Shown here one piece after another: positions 4,313 to 48,959 of a stretch of DNA of 64,000 nucleotides. Position numbers and translations under genes: made by a program. Origin of the DNA: Panopea generosa (lineage: Eukaryota > Mollusca > Bivalvia > Adapedonta > Hiatellidae); NCBI GenBank assembly GCA_029582155.1, contig CM055901.1, positions 25,577,657 to 25,641,656 of the forward strand. Direction: 5' to 3'. The notes beneath the pieces are model-generated. The model worked only from the letters and a program-made list of their open reading frames with translations, was not told where the DNA came from and made no database searches. Numbering within the stretch: the stretch's first letter is position 1; each line of letters opens with the position of its first letter.

Positions 4313-4480
4313 GACGCAGGCTTATCAGGCTACAGAGTAGTTATGAAATTCGTCCTGTAAAAAAAGTTGGAAAAAATTACATTGTGTACAAAAGTTATGA
4401 AATCAATGTTGTACAAAGTGCATGGAAAAAAATAGAATGGACTCTTCTTGACTCAGATGCAATTTCAGGGGGTAATCTGG
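4313..4480. other. 5' flank of the GPCR gene
   Basis: Non-coding sequence immediately upstream of the receptor start on the minus strand. It presumably contains the 5' untranslated region. No clear TATA box or upstream splice acceptor could be assigned. Confidence 0.3.
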
Positions 4481-20828: not shown

Positions 20829-22660
20829 CTAAGACCGGATAAATTGCATTACCACTCTCGCTCCAGTCAAGGAATTGATAAACTGCATCACCACTCTAGA
20901 TCCAGTCTAGGATAAACTGCATCACCACTCTAGATCCAGTCTGGGATAAACTGCATCACCACTCTAGATCCAGTCTAGGACCGAATAAACCACATCACCA
21001 CTATAGATCCAGTCTAAGACCAGGTAAACTGCATCATCACTAGGGATCCATACTAGGACCAGATAAACTGCATCATCACTCTAGATCCAGTCTAGGATAA
21101 ACTGCATCATCACTCTAGATCCAGTCTAGAATAAACTGCAACACCACTTTAGATCCAGTCTACGATAAACTGAATCATCACTCTAGATCCATTCGAGGAT
21201 AAACTGCATCACTTCTCTAGATCCAGTCTAGGACCAAATAAACTACATCACCACTCTTGATCCAGTCTAAGACTGGATAAACTGTATCATCACTTTAGAT
21301 CCAGTCTAGGACCGGATAAACTGCATCATCACTTTAGATCCAGTCTAGAATAAACTGCATCACTACTCTAGAGCCAGTATAGGATAAACTGAATCATCAC
21401 TCTAGATCCAGTCTAGGACAAACTGCATCACCACTCTGGATCCAGTCTAGGATAAACTGCATCATCGCTCTAGATCCAGTCTAGGATAAACTGCATCACC
21501 ACTCTGGATCCAGTCTAGGATATATTGCATCACCACTCTGGATCCAGTCTAGGATAAACTGCATCACCACTCTGGATCCAGTATAGGATATATTGCATCA
21601 CCACTCTGGATCCAGTCTAGGATAAACTGCATCACCACTCTGGATCCAGTCTAGGATAAACTGCATCATCACTCTAGATCCAGTCTAGGATAAACTGCAT
21701 CACCACTCTGGATCCAGTCTAGGATATATTGCATCACTACTCTAGATCCAGTCTAGGACAAACTGCATCACCACTCTGGATCCAGTCTAGGATAAACTGC
21801 ATCATCACTCTAGATCCAGTCTAGGATAAACTGCATCACCACTATGGATCCAGTCTAGGATATATTGCATCACCACTCTAGATCTAGTATAGGATAAACT
21901 GCATCATCACTCTGGATCCAGTCTAAGATAAACTGCATCATCACTCTAGATCCATTCTAGGACAAACTGCATCACCACCCTGGATCTAGTCTAGGATAAA
22001 CTGCATCACCACTCTAGATCCATTCTAGGACAAACTGCATCACCACTCTGGATCTAGTCTAGGATAAACTGCATCATCACTCTAGATCCAGTCTAGGATA
22101 AACTGCATCACCACTCTGGATCCAGTCTAGGATAAACTTCATAACCACTCTAGATCCAGTCTAGGATAAACTGCATCACCACTATGGATCCAGTCTTGAA
22201 AAAATTGCATCACCACTCTAGATCCAGTCTAGGATAAACTGCATCATCACTCTAGATCCAGTCTAGGATAAACTGCATCACCACTATGGATCCAGTCTTG
22301 AAAAAATTGCATCACCACTCTAGATCCAGTCTAGGATAAACTGCATCATCACTCTAGATCCAGTCTAGGATAAACTGCATCACCACTCTGGATCCAGTCT
22401 AGGATAAACTTCATCATCACTCTAGATCCAGTCTAGGATAAACTGCATCACCACTCTGGATTCAGTCTAGGATATATTGCATCACCACTCTGGATCCAGT
22501 TTAGGATAAACTGCATCACCACTCTGGATCCAGTCTAGGATATATTGCATCACCACTCTGGATCAAGTCTAGGATAAACTGCATCACCACTCTGGATCCA
22601 GTCTAGGATAAACTGCATCACCACTCTAGATCCAGTCTAGGATAAACTGCATCACCACTC
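20829..22660. repeat. 34-bp tandem array, ~50 copies, in intron 6
   Basis: The unit is tctagatccagtctagg followed by ataaactgcatcatcac, period 34 (for example 22321 to 22355). Some copies carry a 5-bp gaccg insertion. Each unit contains a CTAGA...TCTAG inverted pair. It is non-coding and lies between macro-domain exons 6 and 7. Confidence 0.95.
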
Positions 22661-22866
22661 TTTAACAACGATGACAGAATGACAATCATTTTTGGTCTTA
22701 CATAATGCTGATGTCACAAGTTCAAGGTCAACTCGGTCCATAATATTTGTGGAAAGTTCTATTCAGATTAATTCTGAGTTTTTTTCTTGCAAATTAAACT
22801 TTAAATCTCATATATAATCTACTATGCATGTGGTAATAAGACCACACCTGCGATGACATCACTTAC

Positions 22867-23037
22867 CGGCACTTATTAACGGCATGGCTATAGACTGTAA
22901 CCAAAGTTTTTCGTCTGCATATTGAAGGCAATTTATATACGAACAGACAAGACATTGGGTGACTTTCTCAGCCTCTCTTTCATTCCACATTGGTCCAACT
23001 ACATGTAGGATATTACTAACACGCTGGCTTAACTTTC
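22867..23037 (-). CDS. Macro-domain gene, exon 6 (middle of macro domain)
   Basis: 171 nt, acceptor ACTTTTACAG and donor GCCG/GTAAGT. It encodes KLSQRVSNILHVVGPMW then LWLQSIAMPLISAG. These are two hallmark macro-domain strands: VIHVVGP.W and SIAFP.ISTG. Symmetric phase 1. Confidence 0.9.
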
Positions 23038-23439
23038 CTGTAAAAGTATGCATGGACTTAATATAGATACATAAGTTGTTGTTTTTTTGTGTCTTTTTAA
23101 ACAAAACAAATCTAAGTACAGTTTTCACTAATTTAACATGGGTTTTATTTTAATTTCTTTATATATTATCTCAAATGTTTTATTCTAAAAAGTAGATTGA
23201 TTAGAAAGTCATTTGATTATTTCAACTTCATTCAAGCCCATTCATTAAATCAACTTTAAATAGGGATACATTATTAATTTTGCCTCTAATTAAATATTAA
23301 ATATTATAGATAGAGAATGTTTTCTGAATTCGTCAAGGTTTCATTTTCATCATCAAATATTACGTTATTTGTGAGTTTCACTGCTAAATACCATATTCGA
23401 ACTGCAATACACATGCTTTTTCAGTTGGTTTAAGATTGA

Positions 23440-23725
23440 TTGAATATTTAGCATTATTTGTATGCCATTGAGGGCTTACAGACGTTCAGTTAACCTAACC
23501 TCTGTTTCCTGCGATCCTGAAAGGTTAACCAGTACTCAAGCACACCCCATCACTGCAAATTATTGATAACTTCCCGAAAATCGGCGGTGATAGACGAATG
23601 ATAATGAGACACAATGTCGTATGTCAATCATCACAGACACTGTTGCCCCCACGGGCATTTGAACTCATGACCCCTGGATTGATAGTCAGACACATAACCG
23701 ACTGAGCTTATCGGGCCTGGCTTTT
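23440..23725 (-). mobile_element. tRNA-derived SINE (family A), near full length
   Basis: Minus-sense copy with the tRNA-like head at 23660-23720 (A-box-like agctcagtcggttatgtgtc and B-box-like gggggtcatgagttcaaat in reverse), the conserved body and a tail at 23440. It lies in intron 5 of the macro-domain gene. Confidence 0.8.
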
Positions 23726-23963
23726 TCAGTTGGAAAACATCTCATGTGCAACCACTTTGAATGTTTGAAAGAGATACATGCGTTACGGAATGAACTACAA
23801 ACTTTCATCTACAGATGGACAGACAACCTGACAGAAGGAAGGATGGGCACGGTAGGACAAGAATATCCCCCTAATTCAACTTTGTTGCAGGGACAGAGGT
23901 ATAAAATAAGTGAACATCTGTAATAATGGTACAACCATTAAAGCATTTAAACACTTTACACAC

Positions 23964-24271
23964 CTCCAGCAGCTGTGCTGGTAACTTCTGCCCAATTCAA
24001 TGGCCCATTGTTCTGCACATACTTGTAACATTCAGCCTGCAACTGGTACCCGACCGCATGTATTATCGCCCTTGACACTCCATACTGATTGGATAGGTCG
24101 GGACTGGAAGGGTTCACTATAGCATCAGTAGTTTGTTTTGTGATGTCGTCCATGGCAACACGAACATTGATGTTTTTTCCGACGGTAAACGAGAAGGTCA
24201 GTGGAACATCACCAAAGTCTGTATGTGCAACATCTATACCACTAGTATATGCCAGCATCGCTCGTGCTGGT
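23964..24271 (-). CDS. Macro-domain gene, exon 5 (start of macro domain)
   Basis: 308 nt, acceptor CCCATATTTAG and donor TGGAG/GTGTGT. It encodes NINVRVAMDDITKQTTDAIV followed by NPSSPDLSNQYGVSRAI. This is the GDIT..DAIVNAAN...GGGVA.AI region of a macro domain. The second Asn of VNAAN is replaced by Ser and the Gly-rich loop is not conserved, so ADP-ribosyl-hydrolase activity is unlikely. Confidence 0.9.
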
Positions 24272-24560
24272 CTAAATATGGGAAACAAATAAATAAAAAC
24301 TACTACACAGAAAATGGTACAAATGACAATTCGCATAGTGTGCTGGAAAATATTTTTATGAACTCTAATAAAACATACAGGGTGTGCACCAAACATCCGT
24401 AAAATTCCGCAAAGACTTAATAAGGAAATACAAAAATACACAAAAGACACACAATGAGAAGAAAGTAATGCTTCATCTCCAATAAACACCCCTCTCACAC
24501 GAAACAAAAAGTTTTCGCTTACATGTTAATATGCATAACTGAGTATATATATTAACTTAC

Positions 24561-25285
24561 CTTGGTTTGTTTTCTTGGAAATTAGTATCATCAGCGAATG
24601 ATATTCTTCTGTTACCACCATCAGCCCCCTCTCTTATGTATTTGACCTCATCATTTTCACTATCAGAGTCACTACTCTCGTCTTCACCTCCGAACTTATT
24701 CTGGTAAGTCCTATATTCTTGGTTGTGATGGGAATTTTTATCATTGCAAAAATCCTTTGTCTCGTAAACACCTTTCATCGGTCGCTTCCGTTCCGTTGCA
24801 TTTTCTCTCTCAGGGTCTTGAGTGTTTCGTCTTACTGTGTCTCCAAATTTATTGTATCCCATATGCCTATGCCCACTCTCTATTGCTTGCTCAGCTCTAC
24901 TCCAGTCATTATACCCACCAGCGTTTTCTTTGCTTCCACTGTTGTTATGACTTGTTGCCCCATAAGCCCTCTGTGGATTACTGTTTTTATTTTTATTTGG
25001 TTTAGAAACAAGTGGTGTTGCTTTGCTTTCATCCCGTTCTGAGGAAAATTTACTAAAATTTAAATGGTTCTGCTCAAGGTGTTCGAAGCGGGTGTCTGGC
25101 GGAGATTGAATTTGTATGTTTGGACGCTTTATTTCATGTCTTGGCTGTTCCCACCTGGGATCCGGCGCACAGGCTCCCTGTATATTTTCAATGGTTGGAG
25201 AAGTTACTGCTTCCTCTCTTGGAGAATTTATGTTGAAATCATATGCATCCAATATGTTGTCTAGATAATTTAAAGCCCACTCGAG
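24561..25285 (-). CDS. Macro-domain gene, exon 4 (charged linker)
   Basis: 725 nt, acceptor TTGTTAATTTCAG and donor CCAAG/GTAAGT. It opens LEWALNYLDNILDAYDFN, completing the last helix of the preceding KH-like segment. It then becomes a hydrophilic Asn/Ser/Arg/Glu-rich region with no recognised fold. The frame is open through the whole exon, and phase 0 in and phase 2 out fit. Confidence 0.85.
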
Positions 25286-25894
25286 CTGAAATTAACAAAT
25301 CGAAATAATTTACAATTCTTAAAATATTGATGAAGTATTTATTGATCAAGTTTTTGGTTTTACTCCATAATGTTATTTTTGTTGGTTTTGATAGTATGTA
25401 AAGAATCAAACGTGTGGTTTATGATGTTTTAAAAATGTCATTTTTACTGCGGTATTGGTTTTTGCACGTGTCCGTTATTGCAGTATGATTGATATGGCGG
25501 TGTTCCAAGTAGATGGTGAACATCTGTAGCTGATATTTATAGTTTGTTATACAAATATGCACGTGCTCATTGTAATTGGGAACATTTACTTCCATTAATC
25601 TATGTGGTGTTTTATACTGTCTAAATGGATTGTTATTTGTTACTTAGGAGTGTTTTTAAAGATGTATATTATATGACCTGTTTACTATCAATAAACTATA
25701 CTGAATTTATGTGTAATTAATTTTCAAGACTTTGATGCAAAACACATCTAAGTCAAGTCCTTAGACATTTTATCAAGCAAAACTGCGCATATAATGTAAT
25801 TTTCACATTAATTTTTAAAAATGAGGGTAAATTTAACACTTACACTTAAAACAACTTTTTCAATTACCTTCATATTAAAATAAGTGTTTGCAAA

Positions 25895-25990
25895 GCGGGC
25901 TGCTACTGTAGTGGATAGAGTGATTGCCGCTCATGCAAGAGGTTGCTTGCTCGATCCACAGCTTGACTCGATGCCTCTTAAAAATAGAGA
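25895..25990 (+). mobile_element. tRNA-like SINE relic
   Basis: gtagtggatagagtgattgc resembles an A box. cttgctcgatccacagc about 45 bp later resembles a B box. The pairing is too poor for a functional tRNA. It sits in intron 3 of the macro-domain gene. Confidence 0.35.
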
Positions 25991-26177
25991 CATTATTGGC
26001 TCTATCCATGAAGCGGACTCGAGAGCAGTTTGTATAAGCATTCAGATTTCTTCGCAATTAGGCTAAAATAAATTAGTATAAACTAAATAACATGTTACTG
26101 GACTATCTAGTGACAAAGTATGATTTATGATTGAATTAATCAGCTTAAAACAAACTAGATATAAATGACGCGTATAC

Positions 26178-26333
26178 CTGGTGCCATGTTCCTGCTAACT
26201 CATATGTCTCTTTCTCATAGGAAAAGTTGACAGACACTTCACCAATGAACTGGATCTCTTCCACGATATGTGGGTTCGTACTGATAAACTTACAAACATT
26301 CTGTTCAAGGTCGACCACAACATGCTTAAAAAC
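26178..26333 (-). CDS. Macro-domain gene, exon 3 (KH-like segment)
   Basis: 156 nt (52 codons, phase 0 both sides), acceptor AATTATCTTCAG and donor CACCAG/GTATAC. It encodes VFKHVVVDLEQNVCKFI, then EEIQFIGEVSVNF and YELAGTWHQ. The strand-helix-strand pattern ending in .l.G....v..A...i resembles the degenerate KH domains that follow the RRM in PARP10/14. This is a weak family match. Confidence 0.8.
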
Positions 26334-27210
26334 CTGAAGATAATTTAATGTACAAATAAATAATACCATATTCTAGGAGATATACATTTTTAATACCCCT
26401 CACCTTCTTAATACATCTTACATGCAGTGTATACATGTAGTAATAGTTAAAGGATATTACCCGCCCTCAATACAAAACCTATAAATAGGTGGATGGGGTA
26501 TAGCCAATGAATCTTTCCTAAAACAAAAATATGTAAGAGAAACATTAGCTCTCAGTCTCATTGTATATTTTTTAACATACCAGTTTATCACTTTGTATCT
26601 TGCTGCTTGGATTTAAGTTCAGTTGCATGTGAATAATATTGCACATGTTAATTTTATATCACAATGTCTGGGGTCAAGATAACAACATTGTATTGTATTG
26701 AGTTTTCTCTCCGATTAAATGTAGGGTCTAATAATTGGGATATGCCAGATTGGACAAAACAATTTATTTTCTGCAATAATTATTTCCAATAACCAATGTG
26801 AACTGGCCTAATATGTTTGGACTAGATAGAACCTAGTCATGTCATTCCCAGATATTATCTGTTCAGAAGACTCAACTGCTTTATAAATAACATAATTAAT
26901 AATAAGTCATGTTTCGATCTGAGTTCCACTTTGGGTCATCATATGTATTTTATACAAGATGTTTGCCCCAAAGATTTTTGGTATGTTCTATATATATTCA
27001 AGATTAATATTCTTTGTAAATTATCTTAATTATTTTAAATGGTTTCAACATCACCATCAATTATTTAATTGATGTACACAATGTGATGACCTGAAATAAT
27101 TTAGTTCACTGCAAAAGGTTTGTTTTAGAAAGTTTTCTTACAACGTCATTTTAAATGGTCAGTTTGAGTGCATACTCAATTCAAGCTGTTCTGTACTATT
27201 TGGATCTCAC

Positions 27211-27284
27211 CTGTTTGGGCAGAGCAGCCACGGAAACGTCTTTACTACATAACTGATGTTTCTTCGACAGAAGGGCTTGGACAA
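27211..27284 (-). CDS. Macro-domain gene, exon 2 (end of RRM)
   Basis: A 74-nt micro-exon, acceptor TTCCTTTGCTTCAG and donor CCAAACAG/GTGAGA. It encodes VVQALLSKKHQLCSKDVSVA then ALPKQ. This is the closing helix and strand of an RRM (A..vL...H.l....v.V). It restores frame between exon 1 (phase 1) and exon 3 (phase 0), which is strong evidence that it is real. Confidence 0.82.
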
Positions 27285-27429
27285 CTGAAGCAAAGGAAAT
27301 TTGAGCTTAATATGCACAATAAAAATGCAATTTACATAATTATATATAGAAATATTATTGATACAAACAGGGAATTTGAGACAGGTCCTCGGTACAAGCC
27401 ATGGAACAATATTTAGTTAAAAGATGTTA

Positions 27430-28440
27430 CGTTATGTAACATTCACAAGTAAATGGCAAGTAGATGTTACAATATGCAACGAAAGCAAATAAAATATTTC
27501 CATGAAAATGCAAGAAAAATACTTCTATAAAATGCAACATTCACAAGTAAAACATTTCCATACTATGCAACATTCGCAAGTAAAATATTTCTATGATATA
27601 AAACATACGCAAGTAAGATGAAGCTGTGATATGCAACACTCACAAGTAAAATATTTCTACAATATACAACATGCGCAAGTAATATGTAGCTGCAATATGC
27701 AACATTCACAAGTAAAATATTTCTACCAAATACAACATATGCAAGTAAGAAATAGCAGCGATATGTAACATTTGCAAGTAAAATATTTCTACGATATACA
27801 ACATACACAAGTAAGATGTAGCTGCAATATACAACATACACAAGTAAAATGTGGCTGCGATATACAACATACACAAGAACGATGTGGCTGCAATATACAA
27901 CATATACAAGTAAAATGTAGCTACCATATACAACATACACAAGTAAGATGTGGCTGAGATATACAACATTCACAAGTAAAATGTGGCTGAGATATATAAC
28001 ATACACAAGTAAGATGTAGTTACAATATACAACACACACAAGTAAAATGTTACTGCGATATATAACCTACGCATGTAAAATGTAGCTAAGATATATAACA
28101 TACACAAGTAAAATGTAGATGTGATATACAACATACACAAGTAAGATGTAGCTGCGATATGCAACATTCTCAAGTAAAATATTTCTACGATATACAACAT
28201 ACGCAAGTAAGATGAAGCTACAATATACAACATACACAAGTAAAATGTAGCTGTGATATACAACATACACATGTAAAATAAAGTCATGATATACAACATA
28301 TGCATGTATAATGTAGCTGTGATATACAACATACGCATGTATAATGTAGCTGCGATATACAACATATGTATGTACAATGTAGCTGCAATATACAACATAC
28401 GCATGTATAATGTAGCTGAGATATGCAGCAGCTAGTCAGA
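27430..28440. repeat. 33-bp tandem array in intron 1 (~27 copies)
   Basis: The unit is aagtaaaatgtagctg followed by cgatatacaacatacac, period 33. Because 33 is a multiple of 3, it creates long spurious minus-strand frames of 11-residue repeats. The copies are more diverged on the left. Confidence 0.92.
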
Positions 28441-28576
28441 AACACAGCCAAACTTTGCTTGTTTATGTAGGCCTTGATTCTCTATAAAAGATTATTAGTA
28501 AAATACCAAGACTGGCTTAAATATCTTGCTGATTTTGCTGCATATGTTCCTAACAGGGAATGAATGCTTGTAAAAT

Positions 28577-28578
<2 letters not shown>

Positions 28579-28620
<42 letters not shown>
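28579..28620. repeat. (TG)n microsatellite
   Basis: An uninterrupted TG run of about 42 bp in intron 1 of the macro-domain gene. Confidence 0.98.
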
Positions 28621-28622
<2 letters not shown>

Positions 28623-28699
28623 GTTCTGAAAAGAACAATGAGGCCTTGGGTAAATCTGGTAAAGGTCACTGATACAACATAGAAAACGGTTTCCTCTCA

Positions 28700-30470
28700 A
28701 TAACTTTTCCTTTAAATTTTATAAATTCCTTATTTAGAATTTGATGAAATTAAGTGAGTGGGTTACTTAAATGAAAATGAAGCTTGAGATTTGGTTTAAT
28801 GTAAATCGGGACAGTGTCGCTGCTACTAAAACAGGAAATATAGTAATTGCTTAATAACTGAAGTTTCCTTCGAGACATGTTGATGGCAGTGTGTATATGT
28901 TTCTGACATGGACAGGTAGCCTTGAATTTGTTTTGAAGTGAATTGGGTCAAGGTCACTGTACCTAAAATTAGAAAAAATGTTTTTTGTTCAGTATATTTA
29001 GTGTTTTTTTTCTTCAGATATTTTTAGAAATGTTTGGCTTCATTTACACACAGCATTTATAATGCTTCAGGGTAATCCCCATTTATGGATTATACAATTG
29101 TTGTTGAATCAAAAGTTTTCACAGTCAAAGCCAAAAGGTGGATCATCCGTGTCAGATGGACACATTTCTACTTCTTTCTTTCCTATTTAATGTTAGGTTG
29201 AAAGCCGTAGTGTTTTTGTAGCTATGAATATGGTGGACCTTTCAGGAGCCTCTCTTTATAAATAGTTTTAATAGTTGTTTTAATTAATTAAATGAGTTTT
29301 ACCTATGTATTGCATATTATTTCATTAGCTCTTTCAAATACTGAAACTCTTTAATAATGAGTTCACTACAAATCCTGGCAATTTACCTCCTCTTTATGTA
29401 AATGTTATGGACAGTAAAATATTCAAGTATCCGTTGGTTAAAAGATTCTGTGATCTTGGTTCACAATAATAATACCTTCTATTTTTATTCATTGTAATCT
29501 CCATTTTTTAAAGAAGATACATCAGTATTTTTCAAAATTGGCTCAAAATATTTTTTCCAATATATCATGCCTATATATACTCACTGACCCCGTATTCCCA
29601 AAAGGATATCTATTTAAATATGCTTATAGAATATATTAAAAGGAGATTTCCTAACTTTGGCTACAGACCTAGTTTTTACCAAAAAAGATTTCCCGCTTAA
29701 AAGTGGAGCATATTTTCTGATGTATTATACAAATTACATGATTTCATTTGATTTCAATTTGATCCATTATACAAGTTTTCACTTAATCTTAGAAAGAGTC
29801 TCAATGATGATGCAAGGTTGTCAAGCAGTATTTAAGTGTTGACTATTTTTAGAACAATGATTTCGTTTCAAGTTTACCACTCCAATTTAATTATTAATTT
29901 TGTCACATTTTGGTGAAATCTGGCCAATCAAACCATCCAGATTTATTTATTAATGATAATTAGATGCTTTTTATCAAACAAGTGTTTTAATTTTTAAGAT
30001 ATTTTTAGCGTTTTTTTACTGATATGCTCCCTATAAAAGGTTAAGCATCAGTGTCAACATTTATTTTACGAATGCATGCTCACAAATAAAATAATATTTT
30101 AGATAAGTGTAAAATGGGAATATTAATCCCCATATCTATAAGAAAATCTTCAGTTTAACAGGGGTGGTTTTTGTTGCATTTATTTCTTCTTTTTTTTTAA
30201 ATATGAGTAAATAACTTTAATATTGCTTTTAAAACACAGTTAAAACTAATGAAAATCAACTTTGAGTTACTTTTTTCAATGATAAAACAAAGTACGAAAA
30301 TATAATGTCTTCCAATCATTTATCTTAGATCCCCTATCCAAAATAAAAATAAAATCAATGCTGTGCATACATTTATAATTGTGTAATTCATTTATATATA
30401 TGCATCTTATAAATTGTTCATAACCATATGAAATGGTCTTGCTTTTAAGAAATTGGCACAAGACAAAAAG
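28700..30470. other. Intron 1 sequence, no gene seen
   Basis: AT-rich intronic DNA. The segment at about 29520-29640 resembles the reverse complement of 58110-58200, so a dispersed repeat is present. No exon was found here. Confidence 0.4.
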
Positions 30471-30477
30471 TCATGTT

Positions 30478-33235
30478 TCTCAATCAGTTACTCAGTCTGT
30501 CACTCACTCGCGTTCCAATATAACCAACTTGCACAATATATCTCTCAATAACTCATTCATTCACTCACTTAACCATTCACTAAGTCCATTACTCCATTAA
30601 TGAAAAATTCATTTACTCACCCAATATATCATTCTATCACCCACTAGCCAAAAAGACCAACTCACTCACTCACTTTTCATATACAACTCATGCAATATAT
30701 CACTCACTAACTCACGCATTTACTCACTCAACTACTCACTAATTCCATTACTCCATTAATGAATAATTCATTCACTCACACAATAAATCATTCTATCACC
30801 CACTCATCAAACAGACCAACTCATTTACTCTCTCTTTTCAATATACAACTTGTGCAATATATCACTCACTAACTCACTCACTTAACCACTCACTAACTCC
30901 ATTACTCCATTAATGAATAATACATTCACTCACCTAATATATCATTTTATCACCCACTCACTAAACAGAACAACTCAATCTCTCTCTCTTCAATATACAA
31001 CTCAACAATATATCATTCACTAACTCATCCATTCACTCACTTAACCACTCACTAATTCCATTAATGAATAATTCATTCACTCACCTAATACATCATTCTA
31101 TCACCCACTCACCAAACAGACCAACTCACTCATTCTCTCTCTCTTCAATATGCAACTCATGCAATATATCACTCACTTACTAATCCATTCACTCACTTAA
31201 CCATTCACTAATTTCATTAATGAATAATTCATTCACTCACCTAATATATCATTCTATCACCCACTCACCAAACAGACCAACTCACTCATTCTCTCTCTCT
31301 CTCTCTCTCTCTTCAATATGCAACTCATGCAATATATCACTCACTAACTCATCCATTCACTCACTTAACCATTCACTAATGTCATTAATGAATAATTCAT
31401 TCACTCACCTAATGTATCATTCTATCACCCACTTACCAAACAGACCAACTCACTCATTCTCTCTCTCTCTCTTCAATATGCAACTCGTGCAATAAATCAC
31501 TCACTAACTCATCCATTCACTCACTTAACCCCTCACTAATTTCATTAATGAATAATTCATTCACTCGCCTAATACATCATTCTATCACCCGCTCACCAAA
31601 CAGACCAACTCATTCATTCTCTCTTTTTAATATACAACTCATGCAATATATCACCCACTAACTCACTCATTCCCTCACTTAACCACTCACTTAGTTCATT
31701 ACTCAATTATTGAATAATTCATTAACTCACCCAATATTTCACTCTATCACCCACTCATCAAACAGACCAACTCATTCACTCTCCCTTTTCAATATACAAC
31801 TTGTGCAATATATCATTCACTAAATCACTCACTTAACCACTCACTAAGTCCATTATTCCATTGATAATAACTCATTCACTCTCCCAATAAATCATCCTAT
31901 CACCCATTCAATAAACAGACCAACACACTCACTTTCACTTTTCGGTATACAACTCATGCAATATATCACTCACTAACTCACTCATTCACTCACCTAACAA
32001 CTCACTAAATCTTTTACTCCATTGATAAATAATTCATTCACTCACCCAATAAACCATTCTATCACCCACTCAATAAACAGGCCAACTCACTCACTCCCAC
32101 TTTTCAGTAAACAACTCATGCAATATATCACTCACTAACTCACTCATTCACTCACCTAACCACTCACTAAGTCCATTACTCCATTTATAATAATTCATTC
32201 ACTCACCCAATAAATCATTCTATCACCCACTCACTAAACAGACCAACTCACTCACTCTCACTTTTCAGTATACAACTCATGCAATATATCACTCACTAAC
32301 TCACTCATTCACTCACCTAACCACTCACTAAGTCTTTTACTCCATTGATAAATAATTCATTCACTCTCCCAATAAATCATTCTATCACCCACTCAATAAA
32401 CAGGCCAACTCACTCGCTCCCAATTTTCAGTAAACAACTCATGCAATATATCACTCACTAACTCACTCATTCACTCACCTAACCACTCACTAAGTCCATT
32501 ACTCCATTTATAATAATTCATTCACTCACCCAATAAATCATTCTATCACCCACTCACTAAACAGACCAACTCACTCACTCTCACTTTTCAGTATACAACT
32601 CATGCAATATATCACTCACTAACTCACTCATTCACTCACTTAACCACTAACTAAGTCCATTACTCTATTGATAAATAACTCATTCACTCTCCCAATAAAT
32701 CTATCTATCACCCACTCAATAAACAGGCCAACTCACTCACTCTCACTTTTCAGTATACAACTCATGCAATGTATCACTCACTAACTCACTCATTCACTCA
32801 CTTAACCACTAACTAAGTCCATTACTCTATTGATAAATAATTCATTCACTCTCCCAATAAATCTATCTATCACCCACTCAATAAACAGGCCAACTCACTC
32901 ACTCCCACTTTTCAGTATACAACTCATGCAATATATCACTCACTAACTCACTCATTCACTCACTAAGTCCATTACTCCATTTATAATAATTCATTCACTC
33001 ACCCAATCAATCATTCTATCACCCACTCACTAAACAGACCAACTCACTCACTCTCACTTTTCAGTATACAACTCATGCAATATATCACTCACTAACTCAC
33101 TCATTCACTCACTTAGTCCATTACTCCATTTATAATAATTCATTCACTCACCCAATCAATCATTCTATCACCCACTCACTAAACAGACCAACTCACTCAC
33201 TCTCACTTTTCAGTATACAACTCATGCAATATATC
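30478..33235. repeat. ~160-bp tandem array rich in (ACTC), ~17 copies, intron 1
   Basis: Each unit carries catgcaatatatcactcac, a block of cactcact repeats, ccattactccat, aataattcattcactcac and a ccaactcactcactctca stretch. The spacing of gcaatata was about 160-162 bp over several units (32281, 32443, 32603). The unit length is close to a nucleosome repeat. Confidence 0.92.
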
Positions 33236-33506
33236 AATAACTTACTAATCTCACTTTTCGATACACAACTTACACAATATATATATATTAATAGATAACC
33301 CACTCACTCAGTCCAATGCTCATAAATTCATTTACTCACCCAACTCACTCACTCTCATTCAGTCGTTCAATCACTTATTTACCAACCCAATTCCTAAACA
33401 CCTGTCTATTCAAGTACTCACTCACTCAATCAATCATCAAATCAATCAATCAATCAATACATCAAATTGACATGCAGTTTAATATAAAAATAGTTAGTTT
33501 TATCAC

Positions 33507-33663
33507 CTTTTGATTCATGAAACAGCACAACTGCCGAGTTATGTGGAAGTGGGTGGAGTATCTGCCTCACATGACCCCCACCATTTTTGGGATTGCTGAA
33601 ATACATCTTTAGATGCTTCTCTGTCACTTCGTCAGACAGGTTGGTCACGTGGACACCAGACAT
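33507..33663 (-). CDS. Macro-domain gene, exon 1 coding (start of RRM)
   Basis: The start ATG is at 33663 (ACAAAAATG context) and the donor AAAAG/GTGATA is at 33506. It encodes MSGVHVTNLSDEVTEKHLKM, then YFSNPKNGGGHVR and NSAVVLFHESK. VHVTNL is an RNP2-like strand, and LKMYFSNPKNGGG matches the LELYFENKRRSGGG pattern of PARP10/14-type RRMs. An acceptor (ATTGTTTTGCAG) at about 33700 implies an upstream non-coding exon and argues against the upstream in-frame ATG at 33726. Confidence 0.82.
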
Positions 33664-33825
33664 TTTTGTTGTTATTGCAAAACAACCTGCCAATATTAAC
33701 TGCAAAACAATACATGTATTTATCATTTACATATTGCGAGATCGGCAACTCATATCAAGGAAGGAAAAAAGTACAAATTTTCGTGAAAATGGTGAAAACA
33801 TTATGTGTACACTTGCACCCTTCCC

Positions 33826-38001: not shown

Positions 38002-38080
38002 ATGAGTCTGGAGATAAGGTTGTTGGTAGTATTTACGGTCGCTGGACTTGCTGCAGGAAGGAACGTGTTGGTGATTCTGG
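38002..38080 (+). CDS. SGSH: SGSH exon 1 (signal peptide)
   Basis: 79 nt encoding MSLEIRLLVVFTVAGLAAG followed by RNVLVIL. This is a clear signal peptide and the first sulfatase beta strand. The donor is CTGG/GTAAGT, phase 1. The position of RN.L.IL..D matches the sulfatase N-terminus, supporting this ATG. Confidence 0.9.
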
Positions 38081-39770: not shown

Positions 39771-39903
39771 GCGATGATGTGGGTTTCCAGTTCGGAGCGT
39801 ACGGTAACACAAAGATAAAGTCACCCAATGTGGACGCGCTAGCCGAGCGGAGTTTGTTGTTCAAGAATGGATTCACCTCCGTCAGTAGCTGTTCGCCAAG
39901 CAG
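39771..39903 (+). CDS. SGSH: SGSH exon 2 (metal site and catalytic cysteine)
   Basis: 133 nt between acceptor CTTGCATACCAG and donor AAGCAG/GTATAA. It encodes [20 protein letters not shown], then [14 protein letters not shown] and [10 protein letters not shown]. The DD pair and the C-S-P-S-R sulfatase signature are present; Cys67 is the expected formylglycine site. The exon ends inside the Arg71 codon (phase 2). Confidence 0.95.
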
Positions 39904-41033
39904 GTATAAATACACTTCTCAAAATTTCAAACCCACCAATTTTGTTCCAATCAGATTTTAACACAGCAATTGCCTGTTTCTATATTTAGTCTAGTTCGCA
40001 TCGAGTTTTTTTTCTAATTTTAATATTCCATCAAAATAATTTCGTCTCTGAAGAGTAATCTTTCTGTTTTGTAAAACAAAGAATATAGTACATAGCACAA
40101 ACTTTCCTTCGTTGAAAAGGAAATATTTTTTATTACAATTTTTTACAAAAAAGTAGAAAGATTTACAAAGGACGCCTATGCCCTTAATTTATGTTAGTTT
40201 TTACCAATAATTAAATCGAAAAGGGGCAATAACTCCTGTAAAACTTGGACGACGTTGACAAAAATCGATCTTGGTCTGTATTTTATGATTACACAGCCAC
40301 ACTTCAAATAGTAATTAGATTTACACACCCTTTCGGAAATTTTTGATAGGAAACCAATTTGACGGACCGACGGACGGACGCACGCACGCACTCACACACG
40401 GAAGAACGAACAGACGGATATAACCACACTTAATACCCATTCATCATTTTCGAATACTACAGAGTTAAATATTCTGCATTGACAATGTCAGAAAACATAA
40501 GGCAAAATTTAATCTCGTCTCATAAAAACTCATTTAAACTTTAAAATGTTGGTGTGTGTATTTATTTGCTTTACAACAAAACTACTTTGTTGTTAGTTTT
40601 GTTTCAATTGTTGTTTATCGAGATAACTTTTTAAAGCTAGGACCCCGTAACGACGTTCGACCATATGTAATCGCCCAACCAACAGCACCAGATGAGCATA
40701 ATTATCCTCAATTTCTAATCACATCCCATATAATTCTATTCATCGGTTGAACGTCTGTTTATAGTGTAGTTATTTACCAGGAATGCATTTCACAAAAAAA
40801 AAAAACTTACGACAAAAATCGTCGTAAACGTAAACCAACACTTATTCATAATAGTTTTAATTTTCATCCAAATGAATCCAAGTTGGCTCAAATCATGCAG
40901 AAAGTTACATATTTTCTGAAAATACAATCATTTTAAATGTCGATCTAAATTTGAACACACAACGGAGAAATTGTCAAATTGACTTTTGTGAAACGCAGCC
41001 TTGAACTGTAAATACCACTGGTGACATCTGCAG

Positions 41034-41167
41034 GTCGGTAGTTCTGACAGGTCTTCCACAACACCAGAATGGCATGTACGGACTTCACAGCGGCACTCCA
41101 AACTTCCAATCTTTCGGTGACGTCAAAAGTTTGCCGGATATTCTGAAGATGCGTTCCATTCGGACAG
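41034..41167 (+). CDS. SGSH: SGSH exon 3a (alternative, divergent)
   Basis: 134 nt, acceptor GACATCTGCAG and donor CGGACAG/GTTTGT. It completes Arg71 and encodes [18 protein letters not shown], then SGTPNFQSFGDVKSLPDIL and KMRSIRTG. It has the same length and phases (2 in, 1 out) as exon 3b. The first 18 codons give a protein segment identical to 3b, while the rest differs at about 15 of 27 positions. The variable half is less like vertebrate SGSH than 3b is. Confidence 0.9.
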
Positions 41168-41270
41168 GTTTGTCCCGTCTCAGTTTCTGACTATACTTTA
41201 TGGATGTTCTTCTTTTAGGTGATGGGTCTGTACAAATCTTGTGTTGCTTCAGAACTGATGACAAGGTCAA

Positions 41271-41596
41271 ATTCCATGGTGGTGAACCCGCGTAATCTTA
41301 TCCTGTGGAGTGGTGCAAAAAATCGGCGGATAAATGAAGATAACTTTCTTAATATTTCATGAAACTTCACGAAACAAAGACGAACACCGTCTCTGTTTAG
41401 AGATTAATCACCGTTTTTATGCCCACTTGATTTCACCGGTGGTTCATCTCTATATACAGACCGACGTTCGTCTGTGTTTCGTAAAGTTTCTTGAAATATA
41501 AGTTATCTGCAAAAATGTAACATGAAACGGACACTTTTCCTCCGATTCTGTGTACCACCCCATAGAATAAAGATACGTGGGTTGGCCACCGGGAAT
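41271..41596. repeat. Long inverted repeat between SGSH exons 3a and 3b
   Basis: The left arm (about 41271-41394) and right arm (about 41457-41596) are reverse complements over about 125 bp with small indels. Matching blocks include attcc..ggtgg...aaccc, gtggtgca/gtggtaca, atcggcgg/atcggagg, agataactt, atatttca.gaaact and acgaacaccg-type ends. The loop is about 60 bp. It could be a foldback transposon or an RNA structure acting on splicing. Confidence 0.75.
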
Positions 41597-41814
41597 ACAC
41601 CGGGATTTGAAAATAACAATTTGATTTCCCAGATACACTTCGTCACGAAGGTTGTACACAAACTGTGTATGGTACAATATCAAAACCAGCTTGTTGTTAC
41701 AGATGGCATATATTGGTTTGGATGCCACTGGTTATGGTGTAATTACCCATCACCCACCCACGTTAGTTGTAAAATTCTTTGTATCTTTATTTATATTGTT
41801 TCGTACCTCGGCAG

Positions 41815-41948
41815 GTCTGTAGTGTTGACTGGACTTCCCCAGCACCAGAATGGCATGTACGGTCTGCACCATCAAATACACCATTTCGAATCATTTAATG
41901 GCGTTAGGAGTCTACCTGTGATTCTGGACAAACACAAGATACGTACAG
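41815..41948 (+). CDS. SGSH: SGSH exon 3b (alternative, canonical-like)
   Basis: 134 nt, acceptor GTACCTCGGCAG and donor CGTACAG/GTTTGT. It encodes [18 protein letters not shown], then [19 protein letters not shown] and DKHKIRTG. The HHF.SF..VRSLP pattern is the one I recall for vertebrate SGSH. Splicing 3a to 3b would shift the frame, so only one can be used per mRNA. Confidence 0.93.
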
Positions 41949-42094
41949 GTTTGTCGCCTTACATAAACCTTATTGCATAACGGACAATGACACTCGTCAT
42001 ACCATCGGTGTCACTTGTTGTGTCGACACCTCGGCAGAACGTCCGTTCCGGTGTCAAATCAGTGATACTTCGACTTAACTGAAGAATAATTCTC

Positions 42095-42175
42095 ATTAAA
42101 ATCAGATCAACATAAGCTTCCATACTCTATGCACAGTGCATAAGGTATGGAAGCTAAAGTTGATTTGATTTTAAT
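42095..42175. repeat. 81-bp near-palindrome in the SGSH intron after exon 3b
   Basis: Two 40-bp arms around a 1-bp centre, about 35 of 40 positions complementary. The arms begin attaaaatcagatcaac and end gttgatttgattttaat. It is AT-rich and may be a minimal MITE. Confidence 0.85.
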
Positions 42176-42639
42176 CAGATTGTCATTAAATAAAAGGCAC
42201 TTTGTCCAATATATTCCCCATAGACTATGATATTTATGTATATCTTCATGTTTGAAGCTTGATTTGACACTAAGCAATAATTACCATCGTTATAAAAATA
42301 TATTTCGGATTTTACCTAAGAGTATTATAAACTGACGTCAAAAAGGAACGCTCTACCAAACATTTTCTAACAATAGAAACTTTCCTATACTTAAAGTGCA
42401 AGTAGTTCAAGAACGTTACTAGACATCCATGTATGTTTGTACAGACATGTAGACATGTAGAATAAATTCAATTAATAAATCAATGTCATTTTAATTTTGA
42501 AATGTAGTTTATCTCATACGGTAAGGTCAGTTTAGGTATTGCCGTGAAGGCAATCGTCGGAACGTTCGTTTTAATACGAGATGAGGTACGCCATTTTTAA
42601 AAATAATATTTCATCACCACAACTCTCCCCGCATTGACA

Positions 42640-44115
42640 TTGGCTGAATTGGTACATACTACCTGCATGATTCCGGTACCTGGCTGAATTGGTACATACT
42701 ACCTGCATGATTGCAGTACCTGGCTGAATTGGTACATACTAACTGCATGTTTCCGGTGCCTGGCTGAATTGGTCGATACTAACTGCATGTTTCCGGTGCC
42801 TGGCTGAATTGGTACATACTAACTGCATGTTTCCGGTGCCTGGCTGAATTGGTATATACTTACTGCATGTTTCCGGTACCTGGCTGAATTGGTGCAAACT
42901 ACATGCTTGTTTCCAGTGCCTGTCTAAATTGGTACATAGTAACTGCTTCTTTCCGGTGCCTGGCAGAATTGGTACATACAAACTGCATGTTTCCGGCGCC
43001 TGGCTGAAGTGGTACATACAACCTGCTTGTTTCCGGCGCCTGGCTAAATTGGTACATACTACCTGCTTGTTTCCGGTGCCTGGTTAAATTTGTACATACT
43101 ACCTGCTTGTTTCCGGTGTCTGGCTGAATTGGTGTATACTACATGATTGTTGCCGGTGCGTAGCTTAATTGGTGCATACTACCTGCTTGTTTCCGGTGCC
43201 TGGCTGAATTGGTGCATACTACCTGCTTGTTTCCTTCGCCTGGCTGAATTGGTACATACAACATGCTTGTTTCCGGTGCCTGGCTAAATTGGTACATACC
43301 AAAAGCTTGTTTTCGGTGCCTGGCAGAATTGTTGCATACTACATGCTTGTTTCCGGTGCCTGGCTAAATTGGTACATACTACCTGCTTGTTTCCGGTGCC
43401 TGGCTAAATTGGTACATATTACCTGCTTGTTACAGGTGCCTGGCTAAATTGGTACATAATACCTGCTTGTTTCCGGTGCCTAGCTGAATTGGTACACACT
43501 ACCTACTTGTTTCCGGTGCCTGGCTAAATACATACATACTACCTGCTTGTTTCCGGCGCCTGGCTGAATTGGTACATACTACCTGCTTGTTTCCGGCACC
43601 TAGCTGAATTGGTACATACTAACTGCATGTTTCCGGTGCCTGGCTGAATTGGTGCATTTTACATGCTTGTTTCCGGTGCCTGGCTTAATTGGTACATACT
43701 AACTGCTTGTTTCCGGTGCCTGGCTGAATGGGTACATACTTACTGCTTGTTTCTGATGCCTGGTTAAATTGGTACATACTAACTGCTTGTTTCCGGCGCC
43801 TGGCTGAATTGGTACATACTAACTGCTTGTTTCCGATGCCTGGCTAAATTGGTACATACTACCTGCTTGTTTCCGGCGCCTGGCTGAATCGGTACATACT
43901 ACCTGCTTGTTTTCGGTGCCTGGCTGAATCGGTACATACTAACTGCATGTTTACGGTGCCTGGCTGAATTGGTACATACTACCTGCTTGTTTCCGATGCC
44001 TGGCTGCTTGTTTCCGATGCCTGGCTAATTTGGTATATACTAACTGCATGTTTGCGGTGCCTGGATGAATTGGTTCATAGTTGCCTGCATGTTTTCGGTG
44101 CCTGGATGTATTGGT
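42640..44115. repeat. 40-bp tandem array, ~36 copies, in the SGSH intron before exon 4
   Basis: The unit is ggtacatactacctgcttgt followed by ttccggtgcctggctgaatt, exact period 40 over most of its length. Spurious minus-strand frames arise from it. It ends about 85 bp before the exon 4 acceptor. Confidence 0.96.
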
Positions 44116-44198
44116 GCCTTGAATAAAGACATTAACCAACATTTTCAATTCTTTGTGTGTGTTGTAACATTATCTACAAAAGACTAGATTTTTTCCAG

Positions 44199-44349
44199 GT
44201 ATAGTTGGCAAGAAGCACGTTGGACCTGATACGGTGTACAAGTTCGACTACGAGATAACGGAGGAAAACCACAACTTGGAACAAGTAGGCCGCAACATCA
44301 CGTGCATGAAACATTACATTCGGGAATTCCTTACCAAAAATGATAGCAG
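44199..44349 (+). CDS. SGSH: SGSH exon 4
   Basis: 151 nt, acceptor GATTTTTTCCAG and donor AGCAG/GTTAGG. It encodes [20 protein letters not shown], then [20 protein letters not shown] and [11 protein letters not shown]. The Lys and His of GKKHVG correspond to active-site residues of SGSH-type sulfatases. NIT is a potential glycosylation site. Confidence 0.95.
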
Positions 44350-45092: not shown

Positions 45093-45331
45093 ACCGTTTC
45101 TGTTATACATTGGAATACACGACATACATCGATGCGGATATGGAGGCAAGCGTGGAGATTTCTGTGAAAACTTTGGTGATGGTATGACGCCGGGGACAGG
45201 ATCGATCGCGGACTGGAAGCCCATCGTGTACAACCCTGACGACGTGGAGGTCCCGTACTTCCTGCCCGACACTCCCGCCACACGGAAGGATATAGCCAAC
45301 ATGTACAAAACATACAGCCGCTTTGATCAAG
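45093..45331 (+). CDS. SGSH: SGSH exon 5
   Basis: 239 nt, acceptor TTTATCTTTCAG and donor GATCAAG/GTACAA. It encodes PFLLYIGIHDIHRCGYGG, then CENFGDGMTPG, DWKPIVYNPDDVEVPYFLPD and MYKTYSRFDQ. IHDIHRCG carries an active-site His, and the V.VPYF.PDTP block is characteristic of SGSH. The exon ends in phase 1. No in-phase continuation (expected G.G..L..L) was found in the remaining window. Confidence 0.95.
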
Positions 45332-45469: not shown

Positions 45470-48456
45470 TTGGATTTTGGTTAATATCTCAACTAATTAT
45501 TGAATTTTATCCAAATTTGGAAGGAAATGAGAACAACGTGTTATGGTAATTGTCTGAAAATAAATGTATTCGTTTATCTATGAAGATCATTATGAACTTG
45601 TAAAACTGTTTGGCGGCGACTCCTCATGGAGTAGTTCTGCAGGTACTGCTGAGGTTACTGTTTCGCGTAGTTGAGATAGTTCTGCAGGTACTGCTGGGGT
45701 TACTGTTTCACGGAGTTCAGATAGTTCTGCAAGTACTGCCACGGTAACTGTTTCACGGAGTTGAGCTCGTTCTGCAGGTACTGCTGGGGTTACTGTTTCA
45801 CGGAGTTGAGATAGTTCTGCAGGCACTGCCAAGGTAACTGTTTCGCGGAGTTGGAGTTGAGCTCGTTCTGCAGGTACTGCTGGGGTTACTGTTTCACGGA
45901 GTTGAGATAGTTCTGCAGGTACTGATGGGGTTACTGTTTCACGGAGTTCAGATAGTTCTGCAGGCACTGTCGAGGTAACTGTTTCATGGAGTTGAGCTCG
46001 TTCTGCAGGTACTGCTGGGGTTACTGTTTCGCGGAGTTGAGATAGTTCTGCAGGCACTGCCAAGGTAACTGTTTCACGGAGTTCAGAAAGTTCTGCAGGC
46101 ACTGTCGAGGTAACTGTTTGACGGAGTTGAGGTAGCTCTGCAGGCATTGTCGACGTAACTGTTTCGTGGAGTTGAGGTACTTCTGCGAGTACTGCTGGGG
46201 AAACTGTTTTGCGGAGTTGAGGTAGTTCTGCAGGCACTGCCAAGGTAACTGTTTCGCGGAGTTGAGATAGTTCTGCAGGTACTGCTGGGGTAACTGTTTC
46301 ACGGAGTTGAGATAGTTCTGCAGGCACTGCCAAGGTAACTGTTTCACGGAGTTAAGGTAGTTCTGCAGGCACTGCCGAGGTAACTGTTTCGCGGAGTTGA
46401 GGTACTTCTGCAGGTACTGCTGAGGTAACTGTTTTGCGGAGTTGAGATAGTTCTGCAGGTACTGCTGAGGTAACTGTTTCACGGAGTTGAGGTAGTTCTA
46501 CAGGCACTGCCGAGGTAATTGCTTCACGGAGTTGAGGTAGTTTTGCAGGTACTGCTGAGGTAACTGTTTTGCGGAGTTGAGGTAGTTCTGCAGGTACTGC
46601 TGGGGTAACTGTTTTGCGGAGTTGAGGTAGTTCTATAGGTACTGCCGAGGTAACTGTTTCACGGAGTTGAGGTAGTTATGCAGGCATTGCCGTGGTAACT
46701 GTTTCACGGAGTTGAGGTAGTTCTGCAGGCATTGCCGAGGTAACTGTTTCTCGGAGTTAAGATAATTCTTCAGACACTGCCAAGGTAACTGTTACACGGA
46801 GTTAAGATAGTTCTGCAGGTACTGCCGAGGTAACTGTTTCACGGATTTGAGGTAGTTCTGCAGGCATTGCCGAGGTAACTGTTTCACGGAGTTGAGGTAG
46901 TTCTGCAGGTACTGCTGAGGTTACTGTTGCACGGAGTTGAGGTAGTTCTGCAGGAACTACCGAGGTAACTGTTTCATGGAGTTGAGGTAATTCTGCAGGT
47001 AATGCTGTGGTAACTGTTTCACGGAGTTAAGGTAGTTCTGCAGGCACTGTCGAGGTAAATGTTTCACGGAGTTAAGGTAGTTCTGCAGGCATTGCTGAGG
47101 TAACTGTTTTACGGAGTTAAGGTAGTTCTGCAGGCACTGCCGAGGTAACTGTTTCAAAGAGTTAAGGTAGTTCTGCAGGTACTACTTAGGTAATTGTTTC
47201 ACGGAGTTAAGGTAGTTTTGCAGGCACAGTCGAGGTAAATGTTTCGCGGAGTTGAGGTAGTTCTGCAGGCATTGTCGAGGTAATTGTTTCACGGAGTTAA
47301 GGTAGTTCTGCAGGCATTGCCGAGGTAACTGTTTCGCGGAGTTAAGGTAGTTCTGCAGGCACTGTCGAGGTAAATGTGTCACGGAGTTGAGGTAGTTCTG
47401 CAGGCACTGTCGAGATAACTGTTTCGCAGAGTTAAGGTAGTTCTGCAGGTACTGCTGAGGTAAATGTTTCACGGAGTTAAGGTAGTTCTGCAGGCACTGC
47501 CGAGGTAACTGTTTCGCGGAGTTAAGGTAGTTCTGGAGGTAATGCTGAGGTAACTGTTTCACTTAAGGCAGTTCTGCATGTACTGCTGAGGTAACTGTTT
47601 CTCGGAGTTAAGATAGTTTTGCAGGCACTGCCGAGGTTACTGTTTCGAGAAGTTATGGTAGTTCTGCAGACACTGCTGAGGTAACAGTTTCACGGAGTTG
47701 ATATAGTTCTGTAGGCACTGCCGAGGTTACTGTTTCACGGAGTTGAGGTAGTTCTGCAGACACTGCTGAGGTAACTGTTTCACGGAGTAACAGTAGTTCT
47801 ACAGGCACTGCCGAGGTAACTGTTTCACGGAGTTAAGGTAGTTCTGCTGGCACTGCCGAAGTTACTGTTTCATGGAGTAACGGTAGTTCTGCAGACACTG
47901 CTGAGGTAACTGTTTCACAGAGTTACGGTAGTTCTACAGACACTGCCGAGGTAACTGTTTCACGGAGTTAAGGTAGTTGTGCAGGCACTGCCGAGGTAAC
48001 TGTTTCACGGAGTTAAGGTAGTTCTGCATGCACTGCTGTGGTAACTGTTTCACGGAGTTAAGATAGTTCTGCACGCATTGCCGGTGTTACTGTTTCACGG
48101 AGTTACGGTTGTTCTGCAGACACTGCTGAGATAACTGTATCAAGGAGTTGAGATAGTTCTGTAGGTACTACTGAGGAAACTGTTTCCAAATCTCAACGGT
48201 ACCTTCAGAACTACCGTAACTCCGAGAAACAGTGACTTGGTCGAGTAGAGACATTCGATATTAATGCTGATTACCCATTTTTGCGAAAGATAATTTGAGT
48301 ACTGTTGTCATTAAAATTGCTATTTCACAACGATTTTATTAAGATAAACAAATAACGTTTTCAGATAATTACCATAGCATATCGTTCTTATTTTATTTCA
48401 AATTTGGATAAAATCCGATTTCAATTAGTTGAGATATCGACCAAAATCCTTGGTGT
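45470..48456. mobile_element. Foldback-like element: inverted-repeat arms around a 45-bp array
   Basis: The left arm 45470-45580 and right arm 48342-48456 are reverse complements over about 110 bp. Shared blocks include ggattttggt, atatctcaactaatt, ttttatccaaattt, tatggtaatt and gtttatct. Between them lies the 45-bp array. The right arm ends 3 bp before the N run. Confidence 0.75.
45600..48235. repeat. 45-bp tandem array, ~57 copies
   Basis: The unit is ggtaactgtttcacggagtt followed by gaggtagttctgcaggcactgccga in two parts, exact period 45. Since 45 is divisible by 3, it yields long spurious minus-strand frames of 15-residue repeats. The last copies at 48180-48235 are partly in inverted orientation. 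Confidence 0.96.
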
Positions 48457-48459
48457 CTG

Positions 48460-48959
48460 NNNNNNNNNNNNNNNNNNNNNNNNNNNNNNNNNNNNNNNNN
48501 NNNNNNNNNNNNNNNNNNNNNNNNNNNNNNNNNNNNNNNNNNNNNNNNNNNNNNNNNNNNNNNNNNNNNNNNNNNNNNNNNNNNNNNNNNNNNNNNNNNN
48601 NNNNNNNNNNNNNNNNNNNNNNNNNNNNNNNNNNNNNNNNNNNNNNNNNNNNNNNNNNNNNNNNNNNNNNNNNNNNNNNNNNNNNNNNNNNNNNNNNNNN
48701 NNNNNNNNNNNNNNNNNNNNNNNNNNNNNNNNNNNNNNNNNNNNNNNNNNNNNNNNNNNNNNNNNNNNNNNNNNNNNNNNNNNNNNNNNNNNNNNNNNNN
48801 NNNNNNNNNNNNNNNNNNNNNNNNNNNNNNNNNNNNNNNNNNNNNNNNNNNNNNNNNNNNNNNNNNNNNNNNNNNNNNNNNNNNNNNNNNNNNNNNNNNN
48901 NNNNNNNNNNNNNNNNNNNNNNNNNNNNNNNNNNNNNNNNNNNNNNNNNNNNNNNNNNN
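48460..48959. other. Assembly gap, 500 N
   Basis: Exactly 500 unknown bases, the look of a scaffolding gap of unspecified size. It follows directly on the right arm of the foldback element, and the missing SGSH exons may lie here. Confidence 0.98.

Follow-up and report, generated by a model that had tools for sequence, protein, structure and literature searches.

Can a sulfatase choose by splicing which segment follows its catalytic helix? The question is raised by a gene of the bivalve Panopea generosa, in which two adjacent, similar exons each appear able to follow the exon that ends with the catalytic signature. We analysed the whole stretch of 64,000 nucleotides that contains this gene (hereafter the window), taken from an assembly of 1.474 Gb in 39 contigs. 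The original prediction, made from the sequence of the window, had described the gene as heparan N-sulfatase (SGSH) with a duplicated and probably mutually exclusive exon 3. Human SGSH is lost in Sanfilippo A disease, and vertebrate SGSH presumably has a single exon 3. Here we consider whether the two exons are interchangeable, whether selection has kept both, what may govern the choice between them, and which kind of sulfatase they belong to.

Gene Model and Genomic Context

The sulfatase gene lies on the plus strand and starts at position 38002. Exons 1, 2, 3a, 3b, 4, and 5 were placed by tblastn together with their splice sites (Table 1). No exon past exon 5 was found by tblastn within the window, and later exons lie either beyond the window or in an N gap. 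This assembly gap of 500 N (48460–48959) is inside the gene, soon after a minisatellite in the intron that follows exon 5 (45631–48186), in which a 45-bp unit is repeated 57 times. Another minisatellite, with 34 copies of a 40-bp unit, occupies positions 42641–44006 of the intron between 3b and exon 4.

Table 1. Positions in the window of the sulfatase exons and of the paired or folded elements associated with exons 3a and 3b (a slash marks the exon/intron border).
Feature	Position	Strand	Description
Exon 1, coding part	38002–38080	+	Start ATG, MSLEIRLLVVFTVAGLAAGRNVLVILG; donor TGG/GTAAGT
Exon 2	39771–39903	+	Ends with the catalytic C-S-P-S-R; donor CAG/GTATAA
Exon 3a	41034–41167	+	Divergent copy; 134 nt, phase 2 in, phase 1 out
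Intronic arm	41217–41254	+	Predicted to pair across the 3b donor (27 Watson–Crick and 7 G–U pairs, 34 in all)
Long foldback (hairpin)	41271–41596	+	In the 3a–3b intron; main source of the intron fold energy
Exon 3b	41815–41948	+	Conserved, HHF-type copy; 134 nt, phase 2 in, phase 1 out
Partner of the arm	41922–41959	+	Last 27 nt of 3b and first 11 nt of the intron; covers the 5′ splice site
Exon 4	44199–44349	+	Ends ...KNDSR
Exon 5	45093–45331	+	PFLLYIGIHDIHRC...SRFDQ

Long tandem arrays are also present at 1149–2823 (61-bp unit), 20837–22661 (34-bp unit), 27564–28424 (33-bp unit), and 30534–33236 (162-bp unit). The region 22862–33726 probably contains parts of a PARP14-like gene on the minus strand, oriented against the sulfatase gene, with matches to the Macro domain (22862–23149 and 23959–24525) and to the third RRM of PARP14 (33457–33726). 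A single open frame of 419 codons on the minus strand (3065–4321) encodes a rhodopsin-type G-protein-coupled receptor (7tm_1, E 2.5e-23).

Two Interchangeable Exons

The predicted tandem pair, two 134-nt exons with GT–AG sites, phase 2 in and phase 1 out, was located; AG lies ahead of each exon and each donor reads CAG/GTTTGT. With either 3a or 3b, exons 1–5 give 736 nt of coding sequence and 245 residues with zero stops. If 3a and 3b are joined, a stop follows two codons beyond 3a (…IRT-G-L), and if both are skipped, a stop is reached after nine more codons, in exon 4. A working mRNA therefore holds exactly one copy, as had been proposed. The two are homologous adjoining exons with interchangeable phases, and the reading frame is broken when both or neither are used, as is characteristic of mutually exclusive exons. 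Chance does not explain the pair, because the homology extends over 44 codons and is accompanied by equal length, phases, and gene position.

Several candidate causes of exclusive use were rejected. A weak acceptor of 3a (10 of 20 pyrimidines) does not stand out as a cause of regulation, as exons 2 and 4 have 9 and 10. Steric exclusion by a short intron was set aside in view of the 647 nt between 3a and 3b, as was an incompatibility of U2 and U12 sites, each site seen being GT–AG.

Age of the Duplication and Selection on Both Copies

Synonymous and nonsynonymous differences between 3a and 3b were counted by the Nei–Gojobori method, and the two halves of the exon behave very differently. The first 18 codons encode the same residues and contain 9 synonymous and 0 nonsynonymous differences (pS 0.68, dS 1.8), in agreement with the about nine synonymous differences predicted, whereas in the last 26 codons pS is 0.89 and pN 0.35. 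The predicted strong divergence of the second half is thus evident, its count being 14 residues of the last 26 codons rather than about 15 of 27. This part had been thought to lie directly after the C-S-P-S-R signature and actually starts 18 codons after it. Over the whole exon, pS is 0.80 and pN 0.21; the duplication is therefore old, since synonymous sites are saturated.

A pS of 0.80 is also far beyond allelic difference, which argues against an assembly artefact in which two haplotypes or two neighboring genes were wrongly joined. Long tandem arrays near the exons and the N gap within the gene would be in favor of such an error, but a genome DNA search with 3a gave just two matches, one to 3a and one, at 84% identity, to the 55 bases at the start of 3b (the counts are lower bounds, and a more diverged copy could escape), and within the window tblastn did not detect exons 2, 4, or 5 a second time. 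We regard this explanation as scarcely credible.

Neutral decay of 3a was simulated from 3b as the starting sequence, with 20,000 runs per branch length. All of the first 18 residues survived in 0.04% of the runs at 0.2 changes per site and in 0 of 20,000 runs each at 0.4, 0.6, and 0.9, by which neutral decay was rejected. In the last 26 positions, nine are at least 90% conserved among 51 relatives, and 3a and 3b differ at one of these nine as compared with 13 of the remaining 17 (Fisher p 0.003). The sole near-invariant change in 3a affects the second His of HHF (human His97), which is replaced by Asn. Of the residues of 3a, seven are absent from all 51 relatives (mean 0.8 and maximum 4 for the members themselves) and eight from all 14 members of the group to which the gene belongs (0–5 for the members). 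At the positions conserved in at least 13 of these 14 members, 3a keeps 9 of 11 and 3b keeps 10 of 11. The second half of 3a evolves faster, because its unseen residues exceed those of any member.

Such a record might be left by an unused or decaying exon copy, with only 3b reaching the mRNA: 3a has more unseen residues than any member and lacks the near-invariant His97, and no 3a isoform appeared among the public proteins listed (database clustered at 90% identity). A decaying copy is, however, difficult to reconcile with an open frame, intact splice sites, no amino-acid change in 18 codons despite saturated synonymous sites, and the retention of eight of nine near-invariant positions, and the neutral simulations do not yield the observed conservation; we judge it quite unlikely. 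The retained residues also bear on regulated unproductive splicing, in which 3a would mainly be a "poison" exon that breaks the frame and so reduces the amount of enzyme. The early stop obtained with both exons together would suit that role. A poison exon needs no conserved protein, yet 3a keeps 18 of 18 first residues and eight of nine near-invariant ones, and used alone it leaves exons 1–5 open, so that we give this explanation very little weight.

The predicted long purifying selection on both copies is supported by the saturated synonymous sites, the absence of amino-acid changes in 18 codons, and the simulations. Both copies are thus maintained by selection, and in 3a the constraint falls on the frame and on fold positions, with more freedom at other sites. 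A tree of exon 3 only (44 columns, a long branch, 19 of 28 forks open) did not place 3a and so does not date the duplication against the split from Mercenaria.

Search for 3a-Like Segments in Relatives

A full-length protein query gave 773 matches, of which the best 120 were inspected, and a 140-residue query for fragments gave 133, of which the best 120 were taken. From these best 240 of 906 protein matches, 175 exon-3 segments were scored and the 45 most 3a-leaning were examined. None of the 175 was clearly 3a-like in these matches from a database clustered at 90% identity; the most 3a-leaning segment matched 3a better than 3b by just 3 of 29 residues. A 61-residue exon query of the protein database clustered at 90% identity likewise gave no candidate 3a. 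These results are no evidence of absence, because clustering at 90% hides isoforms and only the best 240 of 906 matches were taken; a full-length 3a isoform differs at 14 of about 510 residues and would be hidden. The closest named proteins among the matches listed are from the bivalves Mercenaria, Mactra, Mya, and Dreissena; records of Mercenaria and Dreissena are labelled as isoforms X1 and X2. The best identity among the best 120 of 773 matches is 82%, and none reaches 90%; the species itself therefore seems to be absent from the protein set.

Predicted Pairing across the 3b Donor

The intron between 3a and 3b folds at −217 kcal/mol (z −9.8 compared with 20 shuffles). Its long foldback measures 326 nt and is perhaps a MITE-like element. 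An inverted-repeat search of positions 39904–44198 revealed 12 inverted pairs, and one arm was found to be complementary to the end of 3b. In a post hoc test on one genome, the predicted helix between this arm and the 3b donor region reached −41.7 kcal/mol, and neither 500 shuffles of the arm nor 500 of its target gave a value this low. Among 478 intron segments scanned, the best ones lie over the same arm; the ungapped complementarity was matched in none of 300 shuffles, in which three stretches of intron (with the downstream one taken as far as 42600) were compared with the two exons; and the minimum-energy fold of 41034–41960 contains the helix. The predicted pairing at the exon cluster is thus strong and beyond chance, and the intronic arm is a candidate splice switch. 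Just downstream of 3b, a local hairpin is present at 42091–42179, with 44-nt arms that are 86% complementary and separated by 1 nt.

Against the 3a donor, the same arm gives −25.6 kcal/mol, which is not significant, since 36 and 39 of 500 shuffles did as well. Two competing pairings, one per exon, were accordingly not found with this arm, and a docking site shared by both donors was rejected. Pairing of the 3b acceptor occurs in the minimum-energy fold, yet it was not significant and was also rejected. Because the pairing with the 3a donor lacks significance, the arrangement is not a classic docking/selector pair. Docking/selector systems have a shared docking site and two selectors (PMC6071210), whereas the helix predicted here would lie directly over the donor of 3b.

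The 34-bp complementarity could also be the relic of a small inverted duplication that is idle in splicing, with exclusivity arising only through decay of the double-inclusion and skipping products. Inverted copies give complementarity for free, and the reverse complement of the arm, read in the exon frame, is VLKQHKICT, which resembles part of 3b; moreover, the helix is seen in one genome and the 3a donor is without a significant partner. What speaks against a relic is that 7 of 11 non-Watson–Crick positions are G–U pairs as compared with an assumed share of about one third (binomial p 0.04), and that the helix extends 11 pairs into the intron, although both arguments are weak and post hoc. 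We take the relic seriously and lean only slightly against it.

Placement among Sulfatases

When exons 2–5 were searched against the PDB, the best match was human SGSH (4mhx), with E 4.4e-87 for the 3b version and 4e-83 for the 3a version. The gene belongs to family S1 and is closest to subfamily S1_8. Aligned to human SGSH, the translated exons in the window carry C-S-P-S-R, Asp31, Asp32, Arg74, Lys123, His125, and His181. In a gene tree built from 30 rows of exons 2, 4, and 5, with exon 3 left out and a midpoint root, a split supported at 100/100 separates 14 rows that include the window gene from 16 other rows. The former are the window gene and 13 relatives, of which 3 are unnamed and the 10 with names are all from molluscs; among the latter are Latimeria, Branchiostoma, and Lingula, together with further molluscan proteins. 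In this 30-row, midpoint-rooted tree, the window gene does not group with vertebrate SGSH.

Alignment A2 comprises 35 sequences, 14 group members and 21 others, with six rows assigned without a tree (P0011 in the group; P0120, P0027, P0032, P0023, and P0102 outside). The others (21 of 21) and the group (14 of 14) have fixed differences at positions 36 (Glu/Gln), 281 (Gly/Ala), 282 (Arg/Lys), and 399 (Asp/Ala). Lys282 and Ala399 are carried by relatives P0001–P0011, P0014, P0015, and P0018, the named ones all being molluscan. The window gene's own residues 282 and 399 belong to an exon outside the window, and Lys282/Ala399 were read in these relatives. The window gene itself has Gln36, as in the 14 group members, which is suggestive at most because two ant sequences among the best 120 of 773 matches have Gln36 too. 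The motif around 282 is present in 113 of these best 120 (7 are without it), with Lys in 16 and Arg in 97. Beyond the 14, Lys at 282 occurs in the unnamed P0104 and the sea cucumber protein P0109, neither of which is in a tree; because of the latter, Lys282 is not confined to molluscs.

The substrate-binding Arg282 sets SGSH apart from O-sulfatases, and Asp399 is its salt-bridge partner (PMC4014121). Different from the Arg282/Asp399 of SGSH (PDB 4mhx, 4miv; PMC4014121), the aligned members of the molluscan group of the gene have Lys282/Ala399; this SGSH-like group is thus without the Arg282–Asp399 pair and has the O-sulfatase lysine. The label heparan N-sulfatase given in the original prediction is doubtful because of these residues in the group members, and, with the gene also placed apart from the vertebrate SGSH group, it has to be revised: the gene is probably not an orthodox heparan N-sulfatase. 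Many public records of the Lys282/Ala399 group among the matches listed bear the name SGSH, and several such molluscan records are probably misnamed. The further suggestion that the variable part forms an edge of the substrate pocket is unproven, and residues 93–97 are not among the active-site residues named in the available text of the structure paper (PMC4014121). N-sulfoglucosamine sulfohydrolase shares subfamily S1_8 with 2-O-sulfatases of marine bacteria (PMC12549532), which makes a 2-O-sulfated substrate a reasonable guess and no more; these bacterial enzymes are 18–23% identical to the Mercenaria model across the residues that align.

Proposed Mechanism

We think it quite probable that this is an SGSH-like gene with an old duplication of exon 3, in which each mRNA receives one copy and two isoforms result, the choice being aided by the helix and the isoforms handling glycans differently. 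Either exon would be spliced in, giving isoforms identical save for 14 residues after the catalytic helix (human numbering 93–115), while wrong products with both or neither exon would be lost through early stops. The formed helix may hide the 3b donor and favor 3a, and the open helix would allow 3b. The isoforms may then differ in their handling of a sulfated glycan substrate, which is probably not the classic GlcNS, given Lys282/Ala399 in the aligned group members. A bolder version, which we consider doubtful, is that a molluscan SGSH branch lost Arg282–Asp399 and took the O-sulfatase lysine, and that this clam lineage gained a splice switch, set by an RNA helix over one donor, which exchanges the segment behind the catalytic helix and so tunes one sulfatase between two sulfated glycans. 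Candidates for these would be the animal's own heparin-like chains, which occur in the clam Coelomactra antiquata (PMC7024239), or polysaccharides of algal food.

Comparison with Known Systems and Significance

The substitution of tandem duplicated exons is a well-known kind of arrangement (PMC9741552). In the tandem duplicated or mutually exclusive exons described in PMC9741552 and PMC6071210, neighboring homologous exons likewise keep key structural residues, and there one is used at a time. Known devices for exclusive use include decay of double-copy transcripts and long-range RNA pairing nearby (PMC9741552, PMC6071210). A close parallel is exon 10 of AOX in the oyster Crassostrea virginica (PMC5589949), also a bivalve enzyme gene with tandem exon copies. 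As in the 3a/3b pair, its second copy is conserved and the first has new changes near functional sites. In the oyster the duplicated exon is the terminal one (10 of 10), and expression of both copies was measured and found to be shifted by air exposure (PMC5589949); the sulfatase copies are internal, and the pair is known from genomic sequence.

Listings from literature searches in open-licence PubMed Central showed neither SGSH nor any other sulfatase as a gene whose exons are mutually exclusive or duplicated in tandem, and within that scope the original statement that no such arrangement had been described for SGSH agrees with our search. The locus would add a sulfatase to a known kind of exon duplication, with an unusual predicted control element.

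The residues of the molluscan group matter in their own right. An Arg282Lys mutant was among the plans stated in the paper on the SGSH structure (PMC4014121), and the molluscan group carries Arg282Lys naturally, with the salt-bridge partner replaced too. Should the animal produce both isoforms, splicing would select the segment that follows the catalytic helix of a sulfatase, and the two forms would provide a natural pair for asking what role that segment has in SGSH-type enzymes.
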